From: Vreelandella aquamarina
Lineage (GTDB): Bacteria; Pseudomonadota; Gammaproteobacteria; Pseudomonadales; Halomonadaceae
Assembly: GCF_900110265.1 (NCBI RefSeq)
Contig: NZ_FODB01000013.1
Span: 1-64,000, forward strand
Length of the DNA: 64,000 nt
Direction of reading: 5' to 3'
The position numbers were made by a program, and so were the translations under genes. Each line of letters starts with the position of its first letter. Position 1 is the first letter of the stretch. The notes beneath the pieces are model-generated. The model worked only from the letters and a program-made list of their open reading frames with translations. It was not told the origin of the DNA and made no database searches. This document shows positions 2,009-64,000 of this stretch, piece by piece.

Positions 2009-3739
2009 ATGACACGCCTATTTAATGATCCAAGTGATTTCCCTGAAGAAGCTCGTTTAGGTTTAGTTGCTGCGCATCGCGATAAGTTGATGGCTGTGCC
2101 GGGAGGCGTTGTACGCAGTACGCGCAGCCAGCCAGGAAGTGTTGCGGTCGTGGTTGGCGGTGGCAGTGGCCATTACCCAACCTTTGCGGGGTTAGTAGGG
2201 CAAGGGCTGGCCCATGGGGCTGTCATGGGTAATCTGTTTTGTTCGCCTTCTTCGCAGCAAGTTTATTCTGTCGCCAAAGCCGCTAACAACGGTGGTGGTG
2301 TGCTGCTCTCTTTTGGGAATTATGCGGGGGACGTACTGCATTTTGGTGAGGCGCGCGAGCGTTTGATCGCAGACGGAATTCCCTGTGAGATCGTTCTGGT
2401 CACTGATGATGTCGCCAGTGCTCCCTTGGCTGAGATTGATAAGCGGCGTGGCATCGCGGGTGATCTAACCGTTTTCAAGGCCGCTGCCGCTGCGGCAGAA
2501 AAGGGATTATCACTGGACGAAGTGGTTCAAGTGGCGAAGGAGGCAAATCGCTGCACGCGCTCTTTCGGAGTGGCGTTTGAAGGATGCACATTACCTGGTG
2601 CAGCCGATTCGCTCTTTCATGTGCCCGAGGGCAAGATGGCCATAGGGCTGGGGATTCACGGCGAGCCGGGTATTAGTGAGACGGATATCCCATCCGCAGA
2701 TGGCCTGGCAGAAATCCTCGTTGCCAGGTTGTTGGAGGAAGTTCCTGACGGTATCAGAGTCCAAGGAGCTCGGGTGGCGCCAATACTCAATGGGCTGGGT
2801 ACTATTAAGTATGAAGAGCTGTTCGTTATTTATCGCAAGGTTGACGAACTGCTGCAGGAAGCTGGGTTAGTCATTGTGGAGCCTGATGTGGGTGAGCTGG
2901 TGACCAGTCTTGATATGGCTGGGGTTTCGCTGACGTTATTCTGGCTTGATAATGATATGGAGCCGCTGTGGACTGCTGCTGCGGATGCGCCGGGTTATCG
3001 AAAAGGTAGCGTGACGCCAGCGCAGGCGCTGGATCCTGCTGAGGTAGAGGTAGTTATACAAGATGAGATTCCCGAGGCTAGCGATATCTCGCGAAAACTA
3101 GCGTTTGGTGTCGTTGAGGCGCTCGAAGTGCTCGCAAATACGGTTAATGAAAACTGTGAGATGTTGGGCCAGATTGATGCGGTTGCTGGAGATGGTGATC
3201 ACGGTATTGGTATGCAGCGGGGCAGCAGGGCTGCGCTTGAAGCGGCCAGAGAGGCTCTTGATGGCGGGGCTGGCGCAGAGACAGTGCTGCAGTGGGCTGG
3301 GCAGCGCTGGTCAGACGAAGCGGGCGGGACTTCTGGTGCCATCTGGCGGGTTATCTTAAAAGCGATGGGGGAGTCGCTTGGCAATGAGAAGCCGTTATCA
3401 GTGCAGCGTCTTGCCGCTGGCGTGGTCAATGCCCGTCAGCAAGTCATGGCATTTGGTAAGGCTGAAGTGGGCGACAAAACGCTTGTCGACGTGCTAGTGC
3501 CTTTTGCCGATGCCCTGTCTTGGGAGGCTGAGAAAGGCCAGGGAGCTTTGGCTTGCTGGGAATCCGCTGCACGCATAGCGAGTGAGGCTGCTGAGGCCAC
3601 TAAGCAATTAATTCCCCGCGTTGGCCGCGCACGCCCATTGGCTGAAAAAAGCGTGGGTACACCTGATGCTGGTTCTGTTTCATTGGCGCTGATTATTCAG
3701 GCGCTGATTCCTGTGTTGAAAAAGTGTCAAGCAAGCTGA
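2009..3739 (+). CDS. Dihydroxyacetone-kinase-family kinase (DhaK-DhaL fusion; erythrulose kinase candidate)
   Basis: The protein joins a DhaK domain and a DhaL domain in one chain of about 576 residues, the ATP-dependent form of the family. In DhaK, GGGSGHYP lies near residue 50. GIHGEPG near 215 carries the histidine that binds the ketose covalently. In DhaL, GDGDHG near 394 supplies the magnesium-binding aspartates and EAGGTSG follows. Relatives in tetritol loci (LerK, DerK) phosphorylate L- or D-erythrulose, and that is the likely substrate here. Plain dihydroxyacetone remains possible. The ATG at 2009 is chosen over the one at 1961 because an AGAGG site precedes it by 8 bases and homologues start near this point. 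Confidence 0.88.
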   Translation: MTRLFNDPSDFPEEARLGLVAAHRDKLMAVPGGVVRSTRSQPGSVAVVVGGGSGHYPTFAGLVGQGLAHGAVMGNLFCSPSSQQVYSVAKAANNGGGVLLSFGNYAGDVLHFGEARERLIADGIPCEIVLVTDDVASAPLAEIDKRRGIAGDLTVFKAAAAAAEKGLSLDEVVQVAKEANRCTRSFGVAFEGCTLPGAADSLFHVPEGKMAIGLGIHGEPGISETDIPSADGLAEILVARLLEEVPDGIRVQGARVAPILNGLGTIKYEELFVIYRKVDELLQEAGLVIVEPDVGELVTSLDMAGVSLTLFWLDNDMEPLWTAAADAPGYRKGSVTPAQALDPAEVEVVIQDEIPEASDISRKLAFGVVEALEVLANTVNENCEMLGQIDAVAGDGDHGIGMQRGSRAALEAAREALDGGAGAETVLQWAGQRWSDEAGGTSGAIWRVILKAMGESLGNEKPLSVQRLAAGVVNARQQVMAFGKAEVGDKTLVDVLVPFADALSWEAEKGQGALACWESAARIASEAAEATKQLIPRVGRARPLAEKSVGTPDAGSVSLALIIQALIPVLKKCQAS

Positions 3740-3747
3740 CATGATAC

Positions 3748-4758
3748 ATGCCCTTTAACAACCCCTGGATGTCGAGGATGAATGGTCAAGACGCTGCAGA
3801 TATAGACTTAATGACAGAGATTTCAACGCTCTACTATGTGCAGGGGGAAACGCAGGAGGCAATCGCAAATAGGCTTGGGCATTCGCGTGTGCGAATAGGG
3901 CGGCTGCTCAAACGTGCCCAGGCAGAAGGAATTGTCGATGTTCGAGTGCGCCTGCATCCCGCCGTTAGTGTTGAGATTGAGCAGGAACTCAAGCGTCGCT
4001 TTGGCCTGAAGCGAGCATTGATTGCTCTGGATCATGCCGACCCGGATGTACAGCGCTCGTCAGTCGCTAGTTTAGTGGCAGACCATCTGTCGCGTAGTTT
4101 GACCGATGGTCAGATCGTGGCCGTTGGTATGGGGCGTAACGTGGCCGCCGTGGCAGATAATGTTTTCTTAGCGGAGTCGTTAAAGGTTTCATTCGTGTGC
4201 GCAATTGGGGGCTCGCTGCGTGCAGGTGAGCATATGAATCCCGATCATATTTGTCGACGTTTGGCGAGTAGGTTTGGCGGTGACAGTGAGACGCTTTATG
4301 CCCCTGCGCTGGTACAGAGTGGTGAGCTTAGGGATGCGTTGTATGAAAACTCTACCGTGCGCCAGACGCTAGACCGAGCGCGACGCGCGGATACCGCCTT
4401 GATTGGCGTGGGGGACGTGAGTGAAGACAGCAATATGGTGCGCATGGGGTGGTTTTCGGCCCAGGAGATTGCAGAAGCGCGGCTCTCTGGAACTGTGGGC
4501 GATATGATGGGCTATGACTTTATCGATATCCATGGAAGGCCTTCCGCAACGCAGATGCAGGGGCGTGTGGTGGGGCTTAATATACAGGATCTTACGCGCA
4601 TTCCAGACGTTATTGCCATCGCCAGTGAGAATACTAAAGCGGTCGGCATACTGGGGGCGCTGCGTACCGGCGTTATCGATACTTTGGCCACTAGTGTCAC
4701 TAACGCACACACTATTCTGCGTCTCGATGAAGCGACTCAAGGGGAGGTGCGCACTTAA
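3748..4758 (+). CDS. SorC/DeoR-type sugar-binding transcriptional regulator (EryD-like)
   Basis: This 336-residue protein has an N-terminal helix-turn-helix (about residues 37-60, including AIANRLGHSRVRIGRLL) and a long C-terminal SorC sugar-phosphate-binding domain. Such proteins usually repress or activate a local sugar operon in response to a phosphorylated intermediate. In Brucella the erythritol regulator EryD belongs to this family. It follows the kinase gene by 8 bp and so is in the same transcript. It probably acts at the palindrome at 1125-1144 and the half-site at 4923-4931. The start is uncertain: ATGs at 3769 and 3778 are in frame, and no strong ribosome site stands out. Confidence 0.85.
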   Translation: MPFNNPWMSRMNGQDAADIDLMTEISTLYYVQGETQEAIANRLGHSRVRIGRLLKRAQAEGIVDVRVRLHPAVSVEIEQELKRRFGLKRALIALDHADPDVQRSSVASLVADHLSRSLTDGQIVAVGMGRNVAAVADNVFLAESLKVSFVCAIGGSLRAGEHMNPDHICRRLASRFGGDSETLYAPALVQSGELRDALYENSTVRQTLDRARRADTALIGVGDVSEDSNMVRMGWFSAQEIAEARLSGTVGDMMGYDFIDIHGRPSATQMQGRVVGLNIQDLTRIPDVIAIASENTKAVGILGALRTGVIDTLATSVTNAHTILRLDEATQGEVRT

Positions 4759-5180
4759 CTTGTATTCAAGCTTAGCTGCCTTTTAAAGACCCCTGGGTTG
4801 CGTTGCGCCAAACCTCAATCTCAACCCCAGCCCTGCTCCCTGAGGCATGTACACCTTTTGGCATGCCTGGTTTGCTGCCCCGCCTCCCGCACGATGTCGG
4901 TAACGACAAGCTGGCTTGTGTACATTTGAACGATTAAGGAGCATATTTTATGGCTTTAAGTGGAGCTACCGCTTGGCCGTAATAACAAATAATTTCCATT
5001 TTTTTAATTTAATTATAAAAATCAATAAATTGCATTGTTGGTCTAAAGTATAAGATTAGAAAATGCCATTATGGATTGACTCGACTATGCTTAAAGCAGT
5101 TAATTCATATGCACACAATAAGATCTTTTGTAATGCGGGCGTCGCTAGCTAGGCACTACAAGATACATTAGGAGTGAATA
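4759..5180. promoter_or_regulatory. Intergenic region before the EltD-like gene
   Basis: This 422-bp gap holds a CATTTGAAC half-site (4923-4931) shared with the tal-rpiB promoter region. It also holds a 10-codon ORF with its own ribosome site (4950-4982) and a very AT-rich stretch from about 4980 to 5070. The last part before the gene has a good AGGAG site. No convincing terminator follows the regulator gene; the weak GGCATG...CATGCC pair near 4842-4867 lacks a T-run. It is likely a promoter for the dehydrogenase-transporter genes. Confidence 0.5.
4950..4982 (+). pseudogene. Ten-codon ORF with ribosome site; possible leader or gene remnant
   Basis: AAGGA at 4936-4940 is followed 9 bases later by ATG and the short frame MALSGATAWP, then a stop. 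The arrangement (operator half-site, ribosome site, ATG) looks like a true gene start from which the body has been lost, or a small leader peptide. No downstream sequence continues a recognisable protein. The call is speculative. Confidence 0.25.
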
Positions 5181-6287
5181 ATGCATAATGCTGATAACAA
5201 CAATCGCACCGAACTACCACTGACCATGCAAGCCGTCGTCGCCTACGCGCCTGGAGATTATCGTCTTGAGGAGGTGGCATTGCCGAAGGTGGGAGAGGGT
5301 GAAGTACTGATAAAGGTTGAAGCGTGCGGAATCTGTGCAGGTGACCTCAAGGCATATGAAGGTGCCCCAAGCTTTTGGGGAGATGATACTCAGCCTGCTT
5401 ATATCAAGGCGCCGATGATTCCAGGCCATGAGTTTATTGGTCATGTGGTGGCTTTAGGAGAAGGTGTTGCAGGCTTTGAGGTTGGCGATCGCATTATTTC
5501 TGAGCAAATCGTACCTTGCTGGGGATGCCGTTTTTGTAACCGTGGGCAGTACTGGATGTGCGAAAAGCACGACGTGTATGGTTTTCAGCACAACGTAAAT
5601 GGCGGCATGGCCGAATATATGGTCTTTCCTAAAGAAGCCATTAATCACAAGCTGCCAGATGAAGTTCCGATGGAGAAAGCGGTTCTTATTGAACCCTATG
5701 CTTGTTCATTGCATGCCGTTAAGCGTGCTCAGATTGAGCTGGGAGATGTGGTTGTCCTCTCCGGAGCAGGAACTTTAGGGCTAGGAATGATCGGAGCGAT
5801 CAAAAAATCCGGGCCATCCAAGCTGGTTGTACTGGATCTCAATAATAAGCGCTTAGAGCTTGCCAAACAGTTTGGTGCTGACATTGTATTGAATCCTGCT
5901 GAAGTCGATGTTGTTGACTATGTGAAGAGCATAACGGAAGGATATGGTTGCGATATCTATATCGAGGCCACGGGAGCTGTTAAGTCGGTAGAGCAAGGGC
6001 TTTATATGATTCGTAAACTTGGCCGGTTCGTCGAGTTCAGCGTATTCAAAGAGCCAGTGACGGTTGATTGGAGCATTATCAGCGATCGTAAAGAGCTGGA
6101 TATATTAGGTGCGCATCTAGGCCCTTATTGCTATCCACTTGTGATCGAAGGCATCGGAAATGGCGATTTCCCAACGGATCATGTGGTGACCCATAAGCTT
6201 CCGTTAGCCGAATTTCATCAAGGTCTAGAGCTAATGCGCAATGATCCTGACGCGTTAAAGGTTGTGCTTATACCTGACGGGAAATAG
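5181..6287 (+). CDS. eltD: Zinc-dependent polyol dehydrogenase, EltD-like (erythritol/L-threitol dehydrogenase)
   Basis: This 368-residue medium-chain dehydrogenase has a full zinc set. CGICAGD near residue 49 and PGHEF near 80 supply the catalytic site. The cysteines of CWGCRFCNRGQYWMC near 112 form the structural site. GAGTLGLG near 195 binds NAD. From memory of the family, the segments SEQIVPCW, VTVDWSIISD and GAHLGPYC are shared closely with Mycobacterium smegmatis EltD, which oxidises erythritol and L-threitol to L-erythrulose. It opens the transporter unit and has an AGGAG site. Substrate assignment rests on this remembered resemblance and on context; other polyols are possible. Confidence 0.8.
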   Translation: MHNADNNNRTELPLTMQAVVAYAPGDYRLEEVALPKVGEGEVLIKVEACGICAGDLKAYEGAPSFWGDDTQPAYIKAPMIPGHEFIGHVVALGEGVAGFEVGDRIISEQIVPCWGCRFCNRGQYWMCEKHDVYGFQHNVNGGMAEYMVFPKEAINHKLPDEVPMEKAVLIEPYACSLHAVKRAQIELGDVVVLSGAGTLGLGMIGAIKKSGPSKLVVLDLNNKRLELAKQFGADIVLNPAEVDVVDYVKSITEGYGCDIYIEATGAVKSVEQGLYMIRKLGRFVEFSVFKEPVTVDWSIISDRKELDILGAHLGPYCYPLVIEGIGNGDFPTDHVVTHKLPLAEFHQGLELMRNDPDALKVVLIPDGK

Positions 6288-6334
6288 ATGACGGACGTTT
6301 CTTACTTATAAATATAATGATAACCGGAGTGATT

Positions 6335-6979
6335 ATGTCGGCGACATTAAATTCGGTGCCCGGTGATAAGCGTATAAAGGTCTATGTGGCAGCTGCTTTT
6401 GCTTTAGCGCTGGTTGCACTCATGGCGTTTGATACCAAAGTCATTAGCCTTACTGAACTTGAGAGCGAGGTGGGGTTTTCACCCCAGCAATTTGCTCAGG
6501 AAACCTTTCCAGAGATTCAGGCATATGTCGAGAATAACGCCGTAAATGCATCGGTGTTGGCGCCAGAAGTGCTTCAGGATGCCGGCGCGGCAGGTGAGAA
6601 ATACGGTGTTGCTGCTGGCATTGGTTATATTGTGCCAGTCTCTTTATCAGGTGCTGCCATAGAAGGACGGGGGGGCGTTTACACCCTTGATGTTGAAAAT
6701 GTTCCTTCTGATGTCGTCATTCGTGTGCAAACAGGCCCAGCTATTAATGGCACGACGCTAAGAGATACAACCGGCACTATTCAATTTGGTGACTTCACCA
6801 ATCAAATCGAATACCAAGATGTTGGCGCAGCCCTCAATGACGAAATGAAGCGTCAAGTTCTAGCGGATATTTCCGGACAAGACTTAACCGGAAAAACGTT
6901 AGAAGTGGTCGGCTCTTTTACCATGATAAATCCCAAAAACTGGCTAATTACGCCGGTGAGTATAACGATCATTGAGTGA
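6335..6979 (+). CDS. DUF2291 family protein of sugar ABC loci
   Basis: The protein has about 214 residues, with one N-terminal membrane segment (about residues 14-30) and an extracytoplasmic remainder. It resembles DUF2291 proteins, which sit beside ribose-type ABC importers and have no established function. The ATG at 6335 is preferred over 6317 because CCGGAG precedes it closely. The gene lies between the dehydrogenase and the ATPase genes and its stop falls 8 bp before the ATPase start, so it is translated with the transporter. There is no lipobox cysteine, so it is a membrane-anchored protein rather than a lipoprotein. A part in substrate capture or transporter assembly is a guess. Confidence 0.7.
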   Translation: MSATLNSVPGDKRIKVYVAAAFALALVALMAFDTKVISLTELESEVGFSPQQFAQETFPEIQAYVENNAVNASVLAPEVLQDAGAAGEKYGVAAGIGYIVPVSLSGAAIEGRGGVYTLDVENVPSDVVIRVQTGPAINGTTLRDTTGTIQFGDFTNQIEYQDVGAALNDEMKRQVLADISGQDLTGKTLEVVGSFTMINPKNWLITPVSITIIE

Positions 6980-6987
6980 GGGCGGCT

Positions 6988-8535
6988 ATGAGTATGGATA
7001 GATCAACAGTGAACGTAGCTCCACCCGAAGTGATACTTTCTGCACGCAATATCGAAAAACGTTTCGGTGCCGTGCAAGCCCTCAAAGAAGTGAACTTCGA
7101 TATATATCGAGGACAGGTGACAACGCTCTTTGGTGAAAATGGAGCGGGTAAATCCACGCTGATGAAAATTTTGTCTGGTGTCATTGCTCAGACGGCGGGC
7201 GAGATTGTATTGGAAGGCGAGAGCGTCAGCTTTTCGTCGCCGTCGGATGCTGAAGCGCTGGGGATTACCATTATTCATCAGGAGTTGAGCTTGGCTCCTA
7301 ACCTGAATGTGCGTGACAACATTTTTATGGGCCGTGAGCTGACTAAAGGAAGGGGTAGCGTCGACTATAAAGAAGAAGCGCATCAGGCTGAACTGTTAAT
7401 GGCAGAGCTGGATGAACCGATCCACCCTCTTACCCTGGTGGAAGATCTGCGGGTGGGGCAGCAACAAATCGTTGAAATCGCTAGAGCGCTGTCCAAGAAC
7501 TCTCGCATTTTGATTATGGATGAACCAACTTCCGCATTGAGTGCCACGGAAGTCGAGACGTTATTTAAAGTCGTCCAGGATCTCAAAAACAAGGGTGTGT
7601 CGATTGTTTATATTTCTCATCATTTGGAAGAGGCGTTGCAGATTACCGATCATGCCGTTGTTCTCCGCGATGGAGTCATGACTGCTTACGCCCCACGTAG
7701 TGATATCGACCTGCAGTGGATCGTCAGGCATATGGTAGGAGAGAGTTTCGATCTTGGCTCACCGCCTACAGGGTATGAGCTGGGTTCCACCGCGCTCTCT
7801 ATCCAGAATCTTTACCTCAGCGACGATAAAGTGGCAGGTCGCTATGTTGTTGAGGATCTTTCCCTTGATGTGCGCGCCGGCGAGATTGTCTGCATCTATG
7901 GACTAATGGGCGCGGGAAGAACTGAGTTATTGGAGTGTGTAGCAGGACGAACCCGGCAGACCAAGGGAGATATCTTGCTCAATTCAACTGACGTATCGCA
8001 CTACAACATTGCACAGCGAATCGAGAGAGGGTTGGTGTTAGTGCCTGAGGATCGCCAGCGAGATGGGCTGGTGCCCACCCTGTCAGTCGGAAAAAATCTG
8101 TCGCTAGCCAGTATCCATGCGTTTACTCGCAAGGGGCTTACTTCATCCAGCTTGGAGGCAGAAATGATTAATTCAGCTATCAATCAGGTGCACATTAAAA
8201 CAGACGGTGGGGAGGCTGCCATTGGCTCACTGTCTGGTGGTAACCAGCAAAAAGTAGTGATCGGTAAGATGTTGGCTACTCATCCAGACGTCATCATGCT
8301 TGATGAGCCAAGCCGTGGTATCGATGTAGGTGCCAAGGCCGAAGTATTCAAGTTATTGAGCCAAGGGGCCCAGCGGGGGTTGGCGGTTGTCTTTACAACA
8401 TCTGAAGTAAGCGAGTGCTTGAGTATTCCACACAGAGTGCTGGTGATGAGCAAAGGACGGATCTCTGCTGAATTCAAACCGGGTGTAACGAAAGATGAAA
8501 TTATGGCTGCTTCGGGCGAATCAGTTGCTGCATGA
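6988..8535 (+). CDS. Ribose-type sugar ABC transporter, ATP-binding protein (two NBDs)
   Basis: This RbsA/EryE-like protein of about 515 residues carries two nucleotide-binding domains. The first has Walker A GENGAGKST near residue 49 and the DEPTSALS Walker B region. The second has the degenerate Walker A GLMGAGRTE typical of this class, signature LSGGNQQK near 415, and DEPSRGID. It powers import by the permease encoded next. ATG 6988 is chosen because GAGGG precedes it; a GTG at 6976 overlaps the previous stop. With the EltD-like enzyme beside it, a tetritol such as erythritol or threitol is the best substrate guess, though ribose-like sugars cannot be excluded. Confidence 0.92.
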   Translation: MSMDRSTVNVAPPEVILSARNIEKRFGAVQALKEVNFDIYRGQVTTLFGENGAGKSTLMKILSGVIAQTAGEIVLEGESVSFSSPSDAEALGITIIHQELSLAPNLNVRDNIFMGRELTKGRGSVDYKEEAHQAELLMAELDEPIHPLTLVEDLRVGQQQIVEIARALSKNSRILIMDEPTSALSATEVETLFKVVQDLKNKGVSIVYISHHLEEALQITDHAVVLRDGVMTAYAPRSDIDLQWIVRHMVGESFDLGSPPTGYELGSTALSIQNLYLSDDKVAGRYVVEDLSLDVRAGEIVCIYGLMGAGRTELLECVAGRTRQTKGDILLNSTDVSHYNIAQRIERGLVLVPEDRQRDGLVPTLSVGKNLSLASIHAFTRKGLTSSSLEAEMINSAINQVHIKTDGGEAAIGSLSGGNQQKVVIGKMLATHPDVIMLDEPSRGIDVGAKAEVFKLLSQGAQRGLAVVFTTSEVSECLSIPHRVLVMSKGRISAEFKPGVTKDEIMAASGESVAA

Positions 8536-8554
8536 TTATTCAATCGGATAGGTA

Positions 8555-9658
8555 ATGACTATGTCTCATCACAACAATAACGCGTTACAAGTTGAAAAAG
8601 GCAGTATCGATATCGTCAAGATTTTGCTGGAAGGTAGGGCTTTTTTCGCATTAATCGTGATCATTATTGTCTTTTCCATGCTCTCGCCTGTTTATTTTTC
8701 GACAGGTAATTTTTTAACCATGTCATCTCATGTAGCTGTTTTTGGCTTGCTAGGTATTGGCATGCTGTTTGTCATTCTGACCGGTGGTATCGATCTGTCG
8801 GTTGGCTCTACGCTAGCACTTTGCGGGGTGTTCGCCGGTATGTTGCTAGAAGGGATAGAGATTGAGGCTCTTGATTTGGCTTTCTTCCCTTCAGTGTGGG
8901 TGGTTGTGGTTCTTACCTGCTTACTGGGCGGTCTGGTGGGGGCTATCAATGGTGTGTTAGTTGCCTATTTTAAAGTACCTGCATTTGTGGCCACACTGGG
9001 TATGTTGTATGTCGCCCGCGGAGCTGCCCTATTGCTAACGGATGGATTAACGTTTAACCGTTTAAGTGGTGACCCTGCGTTAGGGAATACAGGCTTTGAG
9101 TGGCTTGGATTTAATAAGCTATTGGGTATTCCGGTAGGCGTTTTGATTCTGTTTGGTGTTGCCATTGTGTGCATGTTGGCCCTCAGTCGTACTCCCTTTG
9201 GCAGATGGGTCTACTCGACAGGAGGGAATGCGCGCGCTGCCGAGCTTTCTGGGGTGCCCGTCAATCGCGTTAAGCTCTCTGTCTATATTATTTCTGGCGT
9301 ATGTGCTGCCATGGCTGGAATTGTGCTCGCCTCACAGTTGACGTCTGCTGGACCTACGGCAGGTACTACCTATGAGCTGACAGCAATTGCTGCGGTGGTG
9401 ATTGGTGGTGCTTCACTAATGGGGGGACGCGGCACGGTTCGCAATACATTATTGGGTGCTTTTGTGATTGGTTTTCTAGCCGATGGTCTTGTCATCATCG
9501 GGGTGTCTGCCTACTGGCAGATGGTATTCACGGGCAGTGTTATCGTCTTCGCTGTCATGCTAAATAATGTCCAATACAGCGCTAAAAATAAGTCCTCGAA
9601 AAAAACTGAGAAAGCTGCAGAAATTAAGCGCGAAGGTTCTAGGGCAAGTGCTACTTAA
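8555..9658 (+). CDS. Ribose-type sugar ABC transporter, permease
   Basis: This 367-residue protein has eight to ten hydrophobic segments and the family marker LTGGIDLSVGSTLAL near residue 75. It is an RbsC/EryF-type inner-membrane permease, likely acting as a homodimer. It follows the ATPase gene by 19 bp. The C-terminal tail beyond the last membrane segment is rich in lysine and glutamate and is longer than usual. ATG codons at 8555 and 8561 are both possible. A perfect hairpin covers its stop codon, between permease and binding-protein genes. Confidence 0.92.
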   Translation: MTMSHHNNNALQVEKGSIDIVKILLEGRAFFALIVIIIVFSMLSPVYFSTGNFLTMSSHVAVFGLLGIGMLFVILTGGIDLSVGSTLALCGVFAGMLLEGIEIEALDLAFFPSVWVVVVLTCLLGGLVGAINGVLVAYFKVPAFVATLGMLYVARGAALLLTDGLTFNRLSGDPALGNTGFEWLGFNKLLGIPVGVLILFGVAIVCMLALSRTPFGRWVYSTGGNARAAELSGVPVNRVKLSVYIISGVCAAMAGIVLASQLTSAGPTAGTTYELTAIAAVVIGGASLMGGRGTVRNTLLGAFVIGFLADGLVIIGVSAYWQMVFTGSVIVFAVMLNNVQYSAKNKSSKKTEKAAEIKREGSRASAT

Positions 9659-9736: not shown

Positions 9737-10693
9737 ATGCTTCCAAAAAGTAAAAAAATGCTTTTTACAGCACTCGCCAGTGTCTCGATGCTCTTTAGCG
9801 GTGCCATAGCTGCTCAGGACAAGGGGTTGATCTCAATTATTGTTAATGATATGTCAAATCCCTATTGGCAAACGGAAGGCACCATTGCGGGGCGCACAGC
9901 TGAAGAGTTGGGCTATGACGCAAATGTCAGTTCCCATGTGGGTGATACCAACACTGAGAGTAATCTGGTTGATACGGCAATTACCAATGGGGCTAAAGCG
10001 ATAATTCTAGATCCTGCTAACGCGGATGGTTCCATTGGCGCGGTGCGAAGAGCCGTTGAGGCGGGAATTCCTGTCTTTATTATTAATGCTGAGATTAACC
10101 AGCAGGGGCTGGCCAAGGCGCAGCTGGTTTCCAATAATGCCCAGGGCGCCGCGTTAGGTGCGCAAGAATGGGCAATGCAATTGGATGGCGAGGGATCTTA
10201 TATAGAATTAAAAGGGCCTCCTTCCGATAACAATGCTGCGACACGATCCAATGGCTATGAGACGGTGTTAAGCCAGTACCCCGACCTTACCCTGGCGGCG
10301 TCTGACATCGCTAATTGGGATCGAACCGAAGGGCGTAATAAAATGCAGAGCATGCTCCGTTCTCATCCTGATATCAGGGGTGTCATTAGCGGCAACGATG
10401 AAATGGCCTTAGGTGCGATTGTTGCCCTAAAGCAGGAGGGGCTGCTCGATGATGTATTGGTTGGTGGGTTTGACGGTTCGCCCGATGCGGTTGATGCGGT
10501 TCGCTCGGGAGAGTTGGCTTATACTGTTCTACAACCGGTAGCCGTATTTGCAGAAGATGCGGTAAAAATCGCTGATCATTACATCAACACAGGTGAAACA
10601 GGGCTAGATAGCGAAAAGCAGCTTTATGACTGTATCCTTATTACGCCAGATAATGTAGACAACTATACCTCTCCCTTTGTTTTGGAAGAATAA
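9737..10693 (+). CDS. Sugar ABC transporter, periplasmic binding protein (RbsB-like)
   Basis: This 318-residue protein has a clear Sec signal (KKMLFTALASVSMLFSGAIA, cleavage near AIAAQ) and a type I periplasmic-binding fold starting SIIVNDMSNPYWQTEG. GGFDGSPDAVDAV is the usual C-lobe segment. It delivers the sugar or polyol to the permease encoded upstream. It follows that gene by 78 bp with a GAGGT ribosome site. A strong terminator lies downstream at 10747-10777, closing the transporter transcript. Confidence 0.92.
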   Translation: MLPKSKKMLFTALASVSMLFSGAIAAQDKGLISIIVNDMSNPYWQTEGTIAGRTAEELGYDANVSSHVGDTNTESNLVDTAITNGAKAIILDPANADGSIGAVRRAVEAGIPVFIINAEINQQGLAKAQLVSNNAQGAALGAQEWAMQLDGEGSYIELKGPPSDNNAATRSNGYETVLSQYPDLTLAASDIANWDRTEGRNKMQSMLRSHPDIRGVISGNDEMALGAIVALKQEGLLDDVLVGGFDGSPDAVDAVRSGELAYTVLQPVAVFAEDAVKIADHYINTGETGLDSEKQLYDCILITPDNVDNYTSPFVLEE

Positions 10694-60984: not shown

Positions 60985-61011
60985 TTAAGTCGTATATTCT
61001 TCCGCCGATAA
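60985..61011 (+). promoter_or_regulatory. Sigma-28 (FliA) flagellar-type promoter
   Basis: GCCGATAA at 61004-61011 is the consensus -10 element of FliA promoters. TTAAGTCG lies exactly 11 bases upstream at 60985-60992 and matches the -35 consensus TAAAGTTT at five of eight positions. The spacing is the canonical one. It lies 33 bp before the binding-protein start. Confidence 0.75.
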
Positions 61012-61043
61012 CAGTGAAAGCACACTACGTAGGGGGAGAATTA

Positions 61044-62204
61044 ATGCGGCGTACAAAAACATGGCTATTGGTAGTTGGGCTGTTAGCAGCGCCACTGGCG
61101 CAGGCAGAACTAACGGTGGGCATCGTTGCCCCTTTAAGCGGGGGGGCTGCCCCGTTAGGCATCGGTATGCAGCAGGGAATTGATACCTACTTTGCCAAGA
61201 TAAACGCTGAAGGTGGCGTCAACGGCAATCAATTGGCTTTAAAAGCCTATGATGATCAATATGCGCCGCTGCAGGCTGCCAAGCATACCCGTGATCTGGT
61301 AAGTGATGAGAACCTACTGGCCGCCGTTGGCAATGTGGGTACGCCCACCGCAGCGGTCACCATTCCTATTTATAACCAAGGGAAAACACTGCTGTTTGGT
61401 GCATTCACAGGGGCAGGTATTCTGCGCCGTTCGCCACCGGACCGCTATGTGATCAACTATCGGGCAAGCTACGTACAAGAGACCGCCGCCATGGTGGATG
61501 GGCTGCTTAGCGCAGGTATTCAACCGGAGGAAATTGCCTTTTTTACCCAAAACGATAGTTTTGGGGATGCGGGCTATAACGGCGCGATAAGTGCTATGCA
61601 AGCGCGGGGCTTCTCCAATACGGCTAACTTGGTTCATGGCCGCTTTACCCGTGGGACCCGGAATATCCATCAGGGCTTGGCGACTATTCTCCAAGCGCCA
61701 GTCACACCACGCGCGGTCATCATTGTTGGCACTTTTGGGCCGGCAGCAGATTTTATCCGTGAAGCTCGCCAAGACCTACCTGACACGCTTTTTCTTAACG
61801 TCTCGTTTGTAGGTAGCCAGGCGCTGTTAGAGGAGTTGGGTTCACGACGAGCAGAGGGCGTTATTGTGACGCAGGTGGTGCCACCGCTAGATGCTGACCT
61901 TCCTGCGGTAGAAGAGTATCGCCAAGCGCTGGCAGAGTATGCGCCAAACGCTGCCCCTGACTTTATCTCTCTGGAGGGCTACCTTGCGGCCAAGCTGTTT
62001 GTAGAAGGTGTAAAAGCCGCGGGTAGTAACCCTGATCGTGAAGCGGTTGTAGATGGCTTATTAAGCCTTGGCAGTATTGATATAGGCGTTGGGGAGCCGC
62101 TCACCCTTGGCCCGAATGACCATCAGGCAAGCGATGCTGTTTGGCCTACGGTTATCCGAAACGGCCAGTTCGAGCCGTTGGATTGGGCCAATGTAGCTCA
62201 GTAA
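61044..62204 (+). CDS. Branched-chain amino-acid-type periplasmic binding protein, probable chemotaxis partner
   Basis: This 386-residue protein has a Sec signal (cleavage near APLAQA) and a type I binding-protein fold of the LivJ class ([36 protein letters not shown]). No ABC permease follows; instead a chemoreceptor gene begins 42 bp later. With the sigma-28 promoter in front, this suggests that the protein presents a ligand to that receptor rather than to a transporter. ATG 61044 follows GGGGGAGA; a frame extending to 61014 lacks a ribosome site. The ligand is unknown. Confidence 0.85.
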
Positions 62205-62245
62205 CTCTCCTGTTTGTATTCTCTCTGACACGACGAACTACTCTA

Positions 62246-64000
62246 ATGAAAAAGACCATAAGTATCCGCGCTATGCTGATTAGCCTCTTTGTCGCCGCTG
62301 TACTGGGTGCCATTGTGCTAGCAGGAACGGGCTGGGTGACCAACCAGCGTTTAATTAACGTTCAGCACTTTATTACCGACGAGGTGCTGCCGCTTCAGGA
62401 CGCTAGCCGCAGCATGGTGCTTACCATGGGCGCTTTTGGACAGCGGCATGCTGATTTACTGGCGACTGATGATACGCAAGCGTTGGCGGACATCACTCCC
62501 CGTAGCGCATTAGAAGAGCGCTATGCTCAGGCTCGAGAGGGGCTTGCGGATATTGAGGAAACCGGTGCTGCTGGGCAGCTGTCTGCTTTGGATAACTACT
62601 TCCAGGCGCTGTTGACGGGCGATGAGGCGCTGGAAGGTGTGCGCCGCGATGCGCTGAATCTACAGGTGAAAATGGCCGAACAGATTGCTCAAATGGAAGC
62701 TGCTATTACCAATGTGATGCACAGCGCCGAAGATATTGCTGGCCGCACAGCGCTGGCTCAAGTGCGTGAAGCGCGCATCCAGCGTGAGCTAGTAGAAGCT
62801 TGGCGGCAGGAGGGAACAACTACACTGCCGACGCGGTTATTAGATGACATCTTTAGTGCGCAGGCGGATGTCGGGCGGCTAAGTAGCAACGCGCGTATGG
62901 CGGTTGCCACTCTTGCAGACCTAGGGCGTCAAATGATGCAAGTGGATAGCATTGATGCGTTGGTGAATCTGCGCAGCAATGAGATTTCTCAACAAGTGTC
63001 GCTGGCCCGCCAGTCCCTGGCAGCGATTGCTGATGCCTCCAGCACCACAGTCGAGCAGCGTGCACTGATTAGCGAACTCGATGCGGTGATTGTCGAACTC
63101 AACGGCATCATGGTGGAAGACGCCGACTCGGTTTATGCGCTGCGCCAGCAGCAGTTGGACCTCGGTGCCCAAGTGCAGGCCGCACTGGCCAACGTAGCCA
63201 CTGCGATGAGCCAGATGCGTGCTGCGCTAGGTGATATTGAAGCCTATACCGTTGCCCAGGCAAGCAGCGCCAGTGAGGAAGCCCAAACCTTGGCTAATGC
63301 TGGCCGAACGCTACTGTTGTTGGTCACGGCGGGCGTCATCGGGGTGCTGGCGATCTTTGGCTGGCGGACATTGGTGCGCGTACTCGGCCCGCTGGTGGCA
63401 ATGCGCCGTCAGATGGAGAACATCAGCGGCGCTGCTGGTGAGAATGCCGACTTATCCATGCGCTTAGCCCTAGAGCGTAATGATGAGGTCGGGCAAGCGG
63501 CCCAGGCATTTAACCGAATGATGGATACCTTTGAAGGCGTGGTGGCGAGAATTCGTGAAAGCGCCGAAGCCATTGCCGCGAGCAGCCGTCAGATTGCCGC
63601 CGGTAATGAAAACCTTTCCCAGCGGGCCGATCAGCAGGCGGCATCGCTGGCTGAAACGGCCTCTAGCCTGGAACAAATAACCGCCACGGTAAAACAGACC
63701 GCTGACTACGCCGACCAAGCTAAAGGTGTCAGCGGTAGTGTGGATGAGCGAGCGCGTTCAGCGGGCGATGTTGCCAAGCGCACCACTGCTGCCATGAGCG
63801 ATATCCGGCAGGCGAGCGAAAAGATTACCTCTATTATCAAAGCCATTGATGATATCGCCTTCCAAACGAACCTTCTGGCATTGAACGCTTCGGTAGAAGC
63901 CGCCCGGGCAGGAGAGCAGGGGCGTGGTTTCGCGGTGGTTGCCCAGGAAGTACGTAAACTAGCAGGGCGCAGTGCGGAAGAGGCGGCGCAAATTCGCCAC
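62246..64000 (+). CDS. Methyl-accepting chemotaxis protein, cut by window end
   Basis: The gene is open from ATG 62246 to the window edge, 585 codons, and lacks its last part. It has a first membrane segment (about residues 8-30), a long helical periplasmic domain (about 35-350), a second membrane segment near 355-376 and a HAMP domain. The signalling domain carries the conserved hairpin [41 protein letters not shown] near 530-570. The large all-helical periplasmic domain suggests a helical bimodular or four-helix sensor type, which often reads a binding protein; the upstream gene supplies one. Confidence 0.93.

Follow-up and report, generated by a model that had tools for sequence, protein, structure and literature searches.

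A Liv-type binding protein without a linked transporter and a chemoreceptor with a TorS-like domain as a probable sensory pair in Vreelandella aquamarina

The window analyzed here comprises bases 1-64000 of contig C79 (64,955 bases) from the 3.50-Mb genome of the halophile Vreelandella aquamarina, and its last two genes probably encode a dedicated binding-protein-dependent chemoreceptor, in which a periplasmic solute-binding protein (SBP) docks on the TorS-like domain of a methyl-accepting chemotaxis protein (MCP) and serves sensing only. A transporter-free SBP paired with a TorS-like-domain chemoreceptor is the best reading of this locus. A first-pass annotation, made from the sequence alone, had proposed that the binding protein is dedicated to chemotaxis and not to uptake, and that it is sensed by the periplasmic domain of the receptor. 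Both proposals gained computational support: the former from the adjacent receptor gene in all 33 genomes in which the SBP was found, a conserved sigma-28-type site and the lack of a Liv-type permease beside the SBP, and the latter from TorS as the best structural match and from changes that fall mostly in the distal part of the domain in three of the four receptor lineages that have no SBP of their own. We infer that the SBP has no role in transport.

The SBP gene (61044..62204, + strand) encodes a 386-amino-acid protein with a Sec-type signal peptide, recognized by eye, and with no linked permease. It matches Pfam PF13458 (Peripla_BP_6, E 2.7e-54), in agreement with the LivJ-type binding protein previously called behind the promoter. 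The closest solved structure is 4kv7, a possible Leu/Ile/Val-binding protein from Rhodopirellula baltica (E 7.8e-100), with which the predicted structure aligned at Z 35.1 over 356 residues, the best of five models being fair (pLDDT 75.9) and the other four scoring 41-62. Modeling and family assignment together point to a type I periplasmic binding fold. Structures matched by this Liv-type fold contain leucine, aromatic acids, amides and urea alike, and the genes around the SBP-MCP pair differ between lineages. The protein is 99% identical to the SBP of Vreelandella (Halomonas) lionensis RHS90; in that draft genome (L011 5001-6160) the gene is frameshifted and differs from the window by several single-base indels, representing either an assembly error or a fresh pseudogene.

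The receptor gene (62246..64000 in the window, + strand) encodes a 704-amino-acid MCP with Pfam HAMP and MCPsignal domains. Its earlier identification as a chemoreceptor stands, but the gene is not complete inside the window, as its stop lies at contig position 64360; the complete reading frame is seen in L002. An AlphaFold2 model of the periplasmic domain, built from 15 sequences, was all helical (pLDDT 81.6), as the first-pass annotation had anticipated for a large helical domain. The domain spans approximately 62333..63280 (+ strand, residues ~30-345) and is predicted to form two stacked helical bundles, the limits of which were placed from the predicted helices: a membrane-proximal bundle of residues ~30-145 and 296-345, and a membrane-distal bundle of residues ~146-295 (62681..63130). 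Foldseek returned the TorS-TorT complex as best match (E 6.7e-6, TM 0.76 by target), with TorS sensor domains in ranks 1-5 (E 6.7e-6 to 5.8e-4). Helical bundles give inflated structural scores; with VIA-align, TorS again came first (Z 18.6; 265 residues aligned, rmsd 2.8 Å), TorS sensor domains filled ranks 1-5 (Z 16.6-18.6), and the next rows held unrelated helical proteins, the best non-TorS match having Z 14.8, and McpS at Z 14.5. The modeled domain, with two stacked bundles that superpose on TorS, is thus best described as having a TorS-like fold. We do not call it a member of the Pfam TorS family, because none of 15 halomonad periplasmic domains matched TorS_sensor_domain (PF21689) at E≤1, even though the fold superposes on TorS. 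Assignment to the HBM domain of McpS and CtpL was also rejected, as there was no match to Pfam HBM (PF16591) and McpS was the weaker fold match. Within the receptor gene, the stretch 62966-63145 (residues ~241-300) differs from the otherwise near-identical L011 and is close to L003 when compared by eye, a pattern in the sequences that suggests recombination between species.

Upstream of the gene pair, TTAAGTCGTATATTCTTCCGCCGATAA at 60985..61011 (+ strand) is an exact match to TNNAGT-N13-GCCGATA, and 32 bases separate it from the SBP start codon. The site reads TTAAGT-N13-GCCGATAA. The consensus for sigma-28 (FliA) has the form TAAAGTTT-N11-GCCGATAA, and the last two letters of the -35 element are CG at the present site versus TT in that consensus. 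Genome-wide, the motif has seven exact matches, six of which lie upstream of flagellar or chemotaxis genes, and the earlier call of a sigma-28 consensus promoter with a correctly spaced -35 element is borne out. These six precede the SBP-MCP operon, flgM, flgK, flaG, fliS and a Cache-domain MCP (MCP domain at C49:88897), with gene families assigned by Pfam; the seventh is antisense within a long open reading frame. Only exact matches are informative, because with up to one mismatch the motif was no commoner in the whole genome than a reversed control (67 versus 79 matches). The genome contains fliA. Judged by promoter motif, the pair would belong to the sigma-28 regulon together with flagellar genes of the same genome.

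For promoter conservation, the site with N13 spacing that scored highest over 11 positions was taken from the region ahead of the SBP in each relative. At least 9/11 positions matched in 28 of 33 non-identical upstream regions and at least 10/11 in 26 of them, where single-base shuffles of the regions average about 7/11; the 9/11 sites of L006 and L014 were equalled by 8% and 3.5% of shuffles, respectively. Five regions fell below 9/11: in two, a 10/11 site occurs with a 12-base spacer; in two more the flank is short, at 209 and 220 bases; and L066 reaches 8/11 only. In a further genus, all eight loci, from six genomes, score 10/11 upstream of the SBP. Directly ahead of the MCP no sigma-28-type site was seen: the five regions scored, which fall largely within the SBP gene, reach 7-8 only. 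A search of L002 from 4800 to 8955 (L002 8791-8955 corresponds to contig positions 64791-64955) turned up no sigma-70-like promoter. Since a conserved site stands ahead of the SBP and none was found ahead of the MCP, the two genes likely share one transcript.

The distribution of the two genes was surveyed in 151 genomes of the family, with cut-offs of E≤1e-5 for the receptor domain and E≤1e-30 for the SBP. The receptor domain occurred in 36 genomes; the SBP was confined to 33 of these. In each of the 33, the receptor-domain match lies on the same strand as the SBP match and begins 113-149 bases downstream of where the latter ends, so that the SBP gene is linked to the receptor gene as in an SBP-dependent chemoreceptor. 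At E≤1e-30, the SBP was found in none of the 115 genomes that lack the receptor domain. The one-way linkage of SBP to receptor is therefore exceptionless in this sample, across four genera. Three genomes (G117, G148 and G023) have the receptor and no SBP, and in these the receptor must work otherwise or be decaying. G117 and G148 retain an 11/11 sigma-28-type site ahead of the MCP; in G117 the receptor, with this site intact, lies directly behind a flavin-reductase gene, in the place that holds the SBP in the window and in several relatives. Receptor paralogues without their own SBP are also present in L009, L012 and G102, the genomes of which have the SBP with another receptor. A second receptor of the same family is situated upstream of the SBP in L012 (2559-4679) and L009 (2547-4682) and has an 11/11 sigma-28-type site to itself. 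In L012 the two receptors (2559-4679 and 6195-8309) appear by eye to have nearly identical signalling halves, suggesting gene conversion.

In the wider phylum, 56 genomes out of a set of 398 matched the SBP profile at E≤1e-70; four of the 56 are halomonads. This gave 66 SBP matches, 62 of which lie outside the halomonads, and 60 regions cover 61 of the 62. Partners were counted for the best 32 of the 62 non-halomonad matches (at least 430 bits, L134-L165, with L134 and L051 being one and the same Phaeobacter plasmid). A receptor gene follows directly downstream on the same strand in 16 of these 32; the partners are six MCPs, eight GGDEF proteins and one hybrid histidine kinase, all identified by Pfam, and one HAMP receptor cut by a contig end. 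Among the rest, six SBP genes adjoin an opposite-strand GGDEF gene (CHASE-GGDEF-EAL in the two scanned), eight have no recognized partner, and two have a contig end within 566 bases of the SBP. The 28 lower-scoring regions outside the count mostly have other neighbors by motif search, and L166 has an MCP directly downstream by Pfam. In L156 and L158, from genomes of 7-8 Mb, the homologous SBP genes are divergent from the CHASE-GGDEF-EAL genes, possibly another signalling partnership.

The input domains of several of these partners are related to the halomonad domain. Six GGDEF receptors beside homologous SBPs carry a domain homologous to it over its length (hhalign probability 99.9%, E 3.3e-31), and two MCPs and one GGDEF-EAL receptor in the same setting belong to the same domain family (99.7%, E 2.1e-25). 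Two other MCPs beside homologous SBPs reach the cut-off of 27 bits for Pfam TorS_sensor_domain, with scores of 29.1 and 41.3 bits; these are the Terrarubrum MCP and that of L148. A single domain family for all SBP partners is not supported, as the profiles of alphaproteobacterial MCP domains beside homologous SBPs (A3 and A6) matched the halomonad domain with a probability of only 12.2% and 1.4%. On alphaproteobacterial plasmids, read from five annotated records among the 243 with a match, the order SBP then MCP occurs in Terrarubrum, Thioclava, Ruegeria TM1040 and Phaeobacter and is absent in Bradyrhizobium Ash2021; the halomonad PA16-9 has the same SBP-then-MCP order. No natural fusion of SBP and receptor was seen when open-frame lengths were inspected.

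Transporter linkage was assessed for Liv-type permeases (BPD_transp_2). The V. aquamarina genome encodes four proteins of the SBP family (Peripla_BP_6). Two of the three besides the window SBP, on contigs C90 and C49, adjoin BPD_transp_2 permeases, whereas the window SBP has none; the remaining one, on C91 (G000:C91:15482-16495), has no adjoining permease and no BPD_transp_2 match on the same contig. On contig C79 the only match (8720-9556) lies 52 kb from the SBP, and the permease gene concerned (8555-9658) has, as read from the sequences, its own sugar-type SBP at 9737-10693. Fifteen relatives that carry the pair have 7 to 20 BPD_transp_2 matches each, and in all 15 none lies within 80 kb of the SBP among the matches listed (about 150 of 156, the weakest few left out). 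No linked Liv-type permease was thus found on the contig or in the 15 relatives, and for this class of permease the first-pass statement that no transporter genes accompany the binding protein was upheld. Nor was a permease found on the contig just outside the window, an observation named there as one that would overturn the proposal; contig C79 runs for another 595 bases after the MCP stop and breaks off within a group II intron. The 5' part of this intron (Rfam RF02001) occupies L002 8791-8955, contig positions 64791-64955, outside the window. It is preceded by what appears by eye to be the 3' remnant of an NmrA/SDR-like gene, the full reading frame of which is found in L003 at 8448-9074, and from these sequences there seems to have been a rearrangement just downstream of the receptor. 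In three relatives (L008, L010 and L013), a gene for a 523-amino-acid membrane protein, recognized by eye, follows the MCP in convergent orientation.

These data bear on an alternative in which the SBP has a double role, feeding an unlinked Liv-type ABC permease on C90 or C49 while also stimulating the receptor, as PstS does (PMC4926252). Besides this precedent, candidate permeases exist: the genome has four BPD_transp_2 genes outside the window, and each of the 15 relatives has 7 to 20 matches. These four genes, however, are two neighboring pairs, one on C49 and one on C90, and both pairs already have their own adjacent Liv-type SBP. The window SBP, by comparison, has a conserved sigma-28-type promoter and was not found in genomes that lack the receptor, and its homologues elsewhere often adjoin receptors. 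We consequently consider a double role unlikely and favor a binding protein dedicated to the chemoreceptor.

Receptor lineages that have no SBP of their own offered a view of which part of the receptor may depend on the binding protein. A tree of 45 receptor domains contained 39 that are paired with an SBP and six that are not; three of the six form one paralogue clade, the genomes of which do have the SBP. The label "no SBP of its own" requires four changes on this tree, of which well-supported branches force three or more. Fifty-eight positions are near-invariant in the 39 SBP-paired domains, 31 in the distal and 27 in the proximal bundle, and changes at these positions were compared by Fisher tests, which take positions as independent, so that all p values given here are overstated. 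In the paralogue clade, 13/31 distal versus 0/27 proximal positions were changed (one-sided p below 0.001), and in G117, 7/31 versus 1/27 (one-sided p 0.041). G148, with 8/31 versus 2/27, was not significant alone (one-sided p 0.064), and G023 showed no distal bias, with 3/31 versus 3/27 (one-sided p 0.73). Pooled over these lineages, 31/124 distal versus 6/108 proximal positions were changed (p=3e-5). Seven held-out SBP-paired control clades, when pooled, gave 11/229 versus 14/206 (p=0.86); taken singly, they had 0-4 distal and 0-6 proximal positions changed and no bias. The distal bias persisted, with p from 1.5e-5 to 0.0013, when three settings each of the module limits and of the conservation threshold were used.

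Recurrence of these changes was counted per lineage, with L055 standing for the paralogue clade. V240 was changed in all four lineages without their own SBP, G166, V173 and R228 in three, and R167, L170, G227, N245, Q249, Q256 and the proximal M324 in two. The residues flagged in the distal module are G166, R167, V173, G227, R228, V240, N245, Q249 and Q256. In distant SBP-paired receptors with other outputs, G166, L170 and N245 are identical in 9/9 and R228 in 8/9. Conservation in the distant GGDEF/MCP outgroup, however, barely sets the lost positions as a group (0.46) above the remaining near-invariant ones (0.42). Near-invariant residues that change repeatedly where the receptor has no SBP of its own mark the distal bundle as a putative SBP docking module, and our reading of these sequence patterns is that the SBP would act at this bundle. 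Direct binding of the ligand by the receptor, with the adjacent SBP an unrelated hitchhiker or a ligand-buffering scavenger, is very unlikely: the receptor-only genomes G117, G148 and G023 would fit it, as would McpS, a poorer fold match whose solved structures (2yfa, 2yfb) contain directly bound small molecules, but the exceptionless linkage across four genera, the distal-module changes where the SBP is missing and the attachment of the same SBP-domain pair to other outputs argue against it.

The evidence tips somewhat toward a broader proposal, that a transporter-free SBP of the Liv type combines with a TorS-like bimodular domain into a portable two-part sensor of the periplasm, found on chemoreceptors, diguanylate cyclases and probably histidine kinases, with a distal docking signature (around G166-[R/K]167, R228, N245) that decays within lineages after the SBP is lost. 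If this proposal holds, such decay means that the genomes themselves map the SBP-receptor interface.

In the proposed mechanism, FliA would make the SBP and MCP together with the flagellum, as suggested by the promoter sequence and its conservation. The SBP would be exported to the periplasm and bind a small molecule in its Liv-type cleft. It may then dock on the membrane-distal helical bundle of the TorS-like domain, a step consistent with the predicted fold and with the selective constraint on this bundle. By the precedents of TorT-TorS and of MCPs, docking would shift the long helices leading into TM2 and HAMP, and this shift could in turn alter CheA activity and swimming.

SBP-dependent chemoreceptors, as well as docking of an SBP on a TorS domain, are already known; new here are that the SBP has no transporter linked to it, that the TorS-like domain belongs to a chemoreceptor, and that outputs are exchangeable. 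The best-known SBP-dependent chemoreceptors use the binding protein of a transporter, and this sharing makes it difficult to tell an effect on sensing from one on uptake. In E. coli the pairs are Tar-MBP, Trg-RbsB, Tap-DppA and Tsr-LsrB, and these SBPs are shared with transporters. In the present case the pair has no linked transporter and stands behind a flagellar promoter, a docking module is predicted, and lineages that lost the SBP serve as natural negative controls, so that the interface becomes directly testable. Finding this input module on cyclic di-GMP enzymes as well would mean that sensing through a binding protein can be exchanged from one output to another, and annotations as "ABC transporter substrate-binding protein" can mark sensory proteins. 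No description of this SBP-receptor pair was found in the literature searched, and the main text of a survey of Halomonas chemoreceptors (PMC5907407) nowhere contains the term "binding protein."

Several known systems resemble the pair in part. The E. coli receptors Tar, Trg, Tap and Tsr are similarly SBP dependent (PMC6321045, for three of the four receptors and for Tsr-LsrB), but in contrast to the bimodular domain described here, theirs are single four-helix-bundle domains (PMC6321045). The TorS sensor domain is docked by the periplasmic protein TorT (PDB 3o1h/3o1i/3o1j; PMC8534201 and PMC6321045), and this trimethylamine N-oxide (TMAO)-sensing system shares with the present pair an all-helical, two-bundle periplasmic domain, on which a periplasmic binding protein docks in TorS and would dock here. 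The differences are that the output is an MCP instead of a sensor kinase, that the halomonad domains have no match to Pfam TorS_sensor_domain, and that the SBP is Liv-type (Peripla_BP_6), with no chain named TorT among its PDB sequence matches. CtpL, which mediates phosphate taxis in Pseudomonas aeruginosa, is a chemoreceptor with a helical bimodular domain (PMC6321045) that is stimulated by ligand-loaded PstS (PMC4926252), and a comparable stimulation by the SBP is proposed here. Unlike PstS, which is part of a transporter, the present SBP is not linked to a transporter and, as judged from the sequence, is under one promoter with its receptor, and the receptor differs from CtpL in having no Pfam HBM match.

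The polyamine-sensing system NspS-MbaA of Vibrio cholerae also combines a binding protein with a membrane cyclic di-GMP protein and resembles the GGDEF relatives, although its ligand class and output differ from those of the present pair. NspS is not known to have a transporter; its gene neighbors mbaA, and the protein belongs to another SBP family. Overall, the input side of the halomonad pair would resemble TorT-TorS and its output side CtpL-PstS, with an SBP that appears to be devoted to sensing alone.
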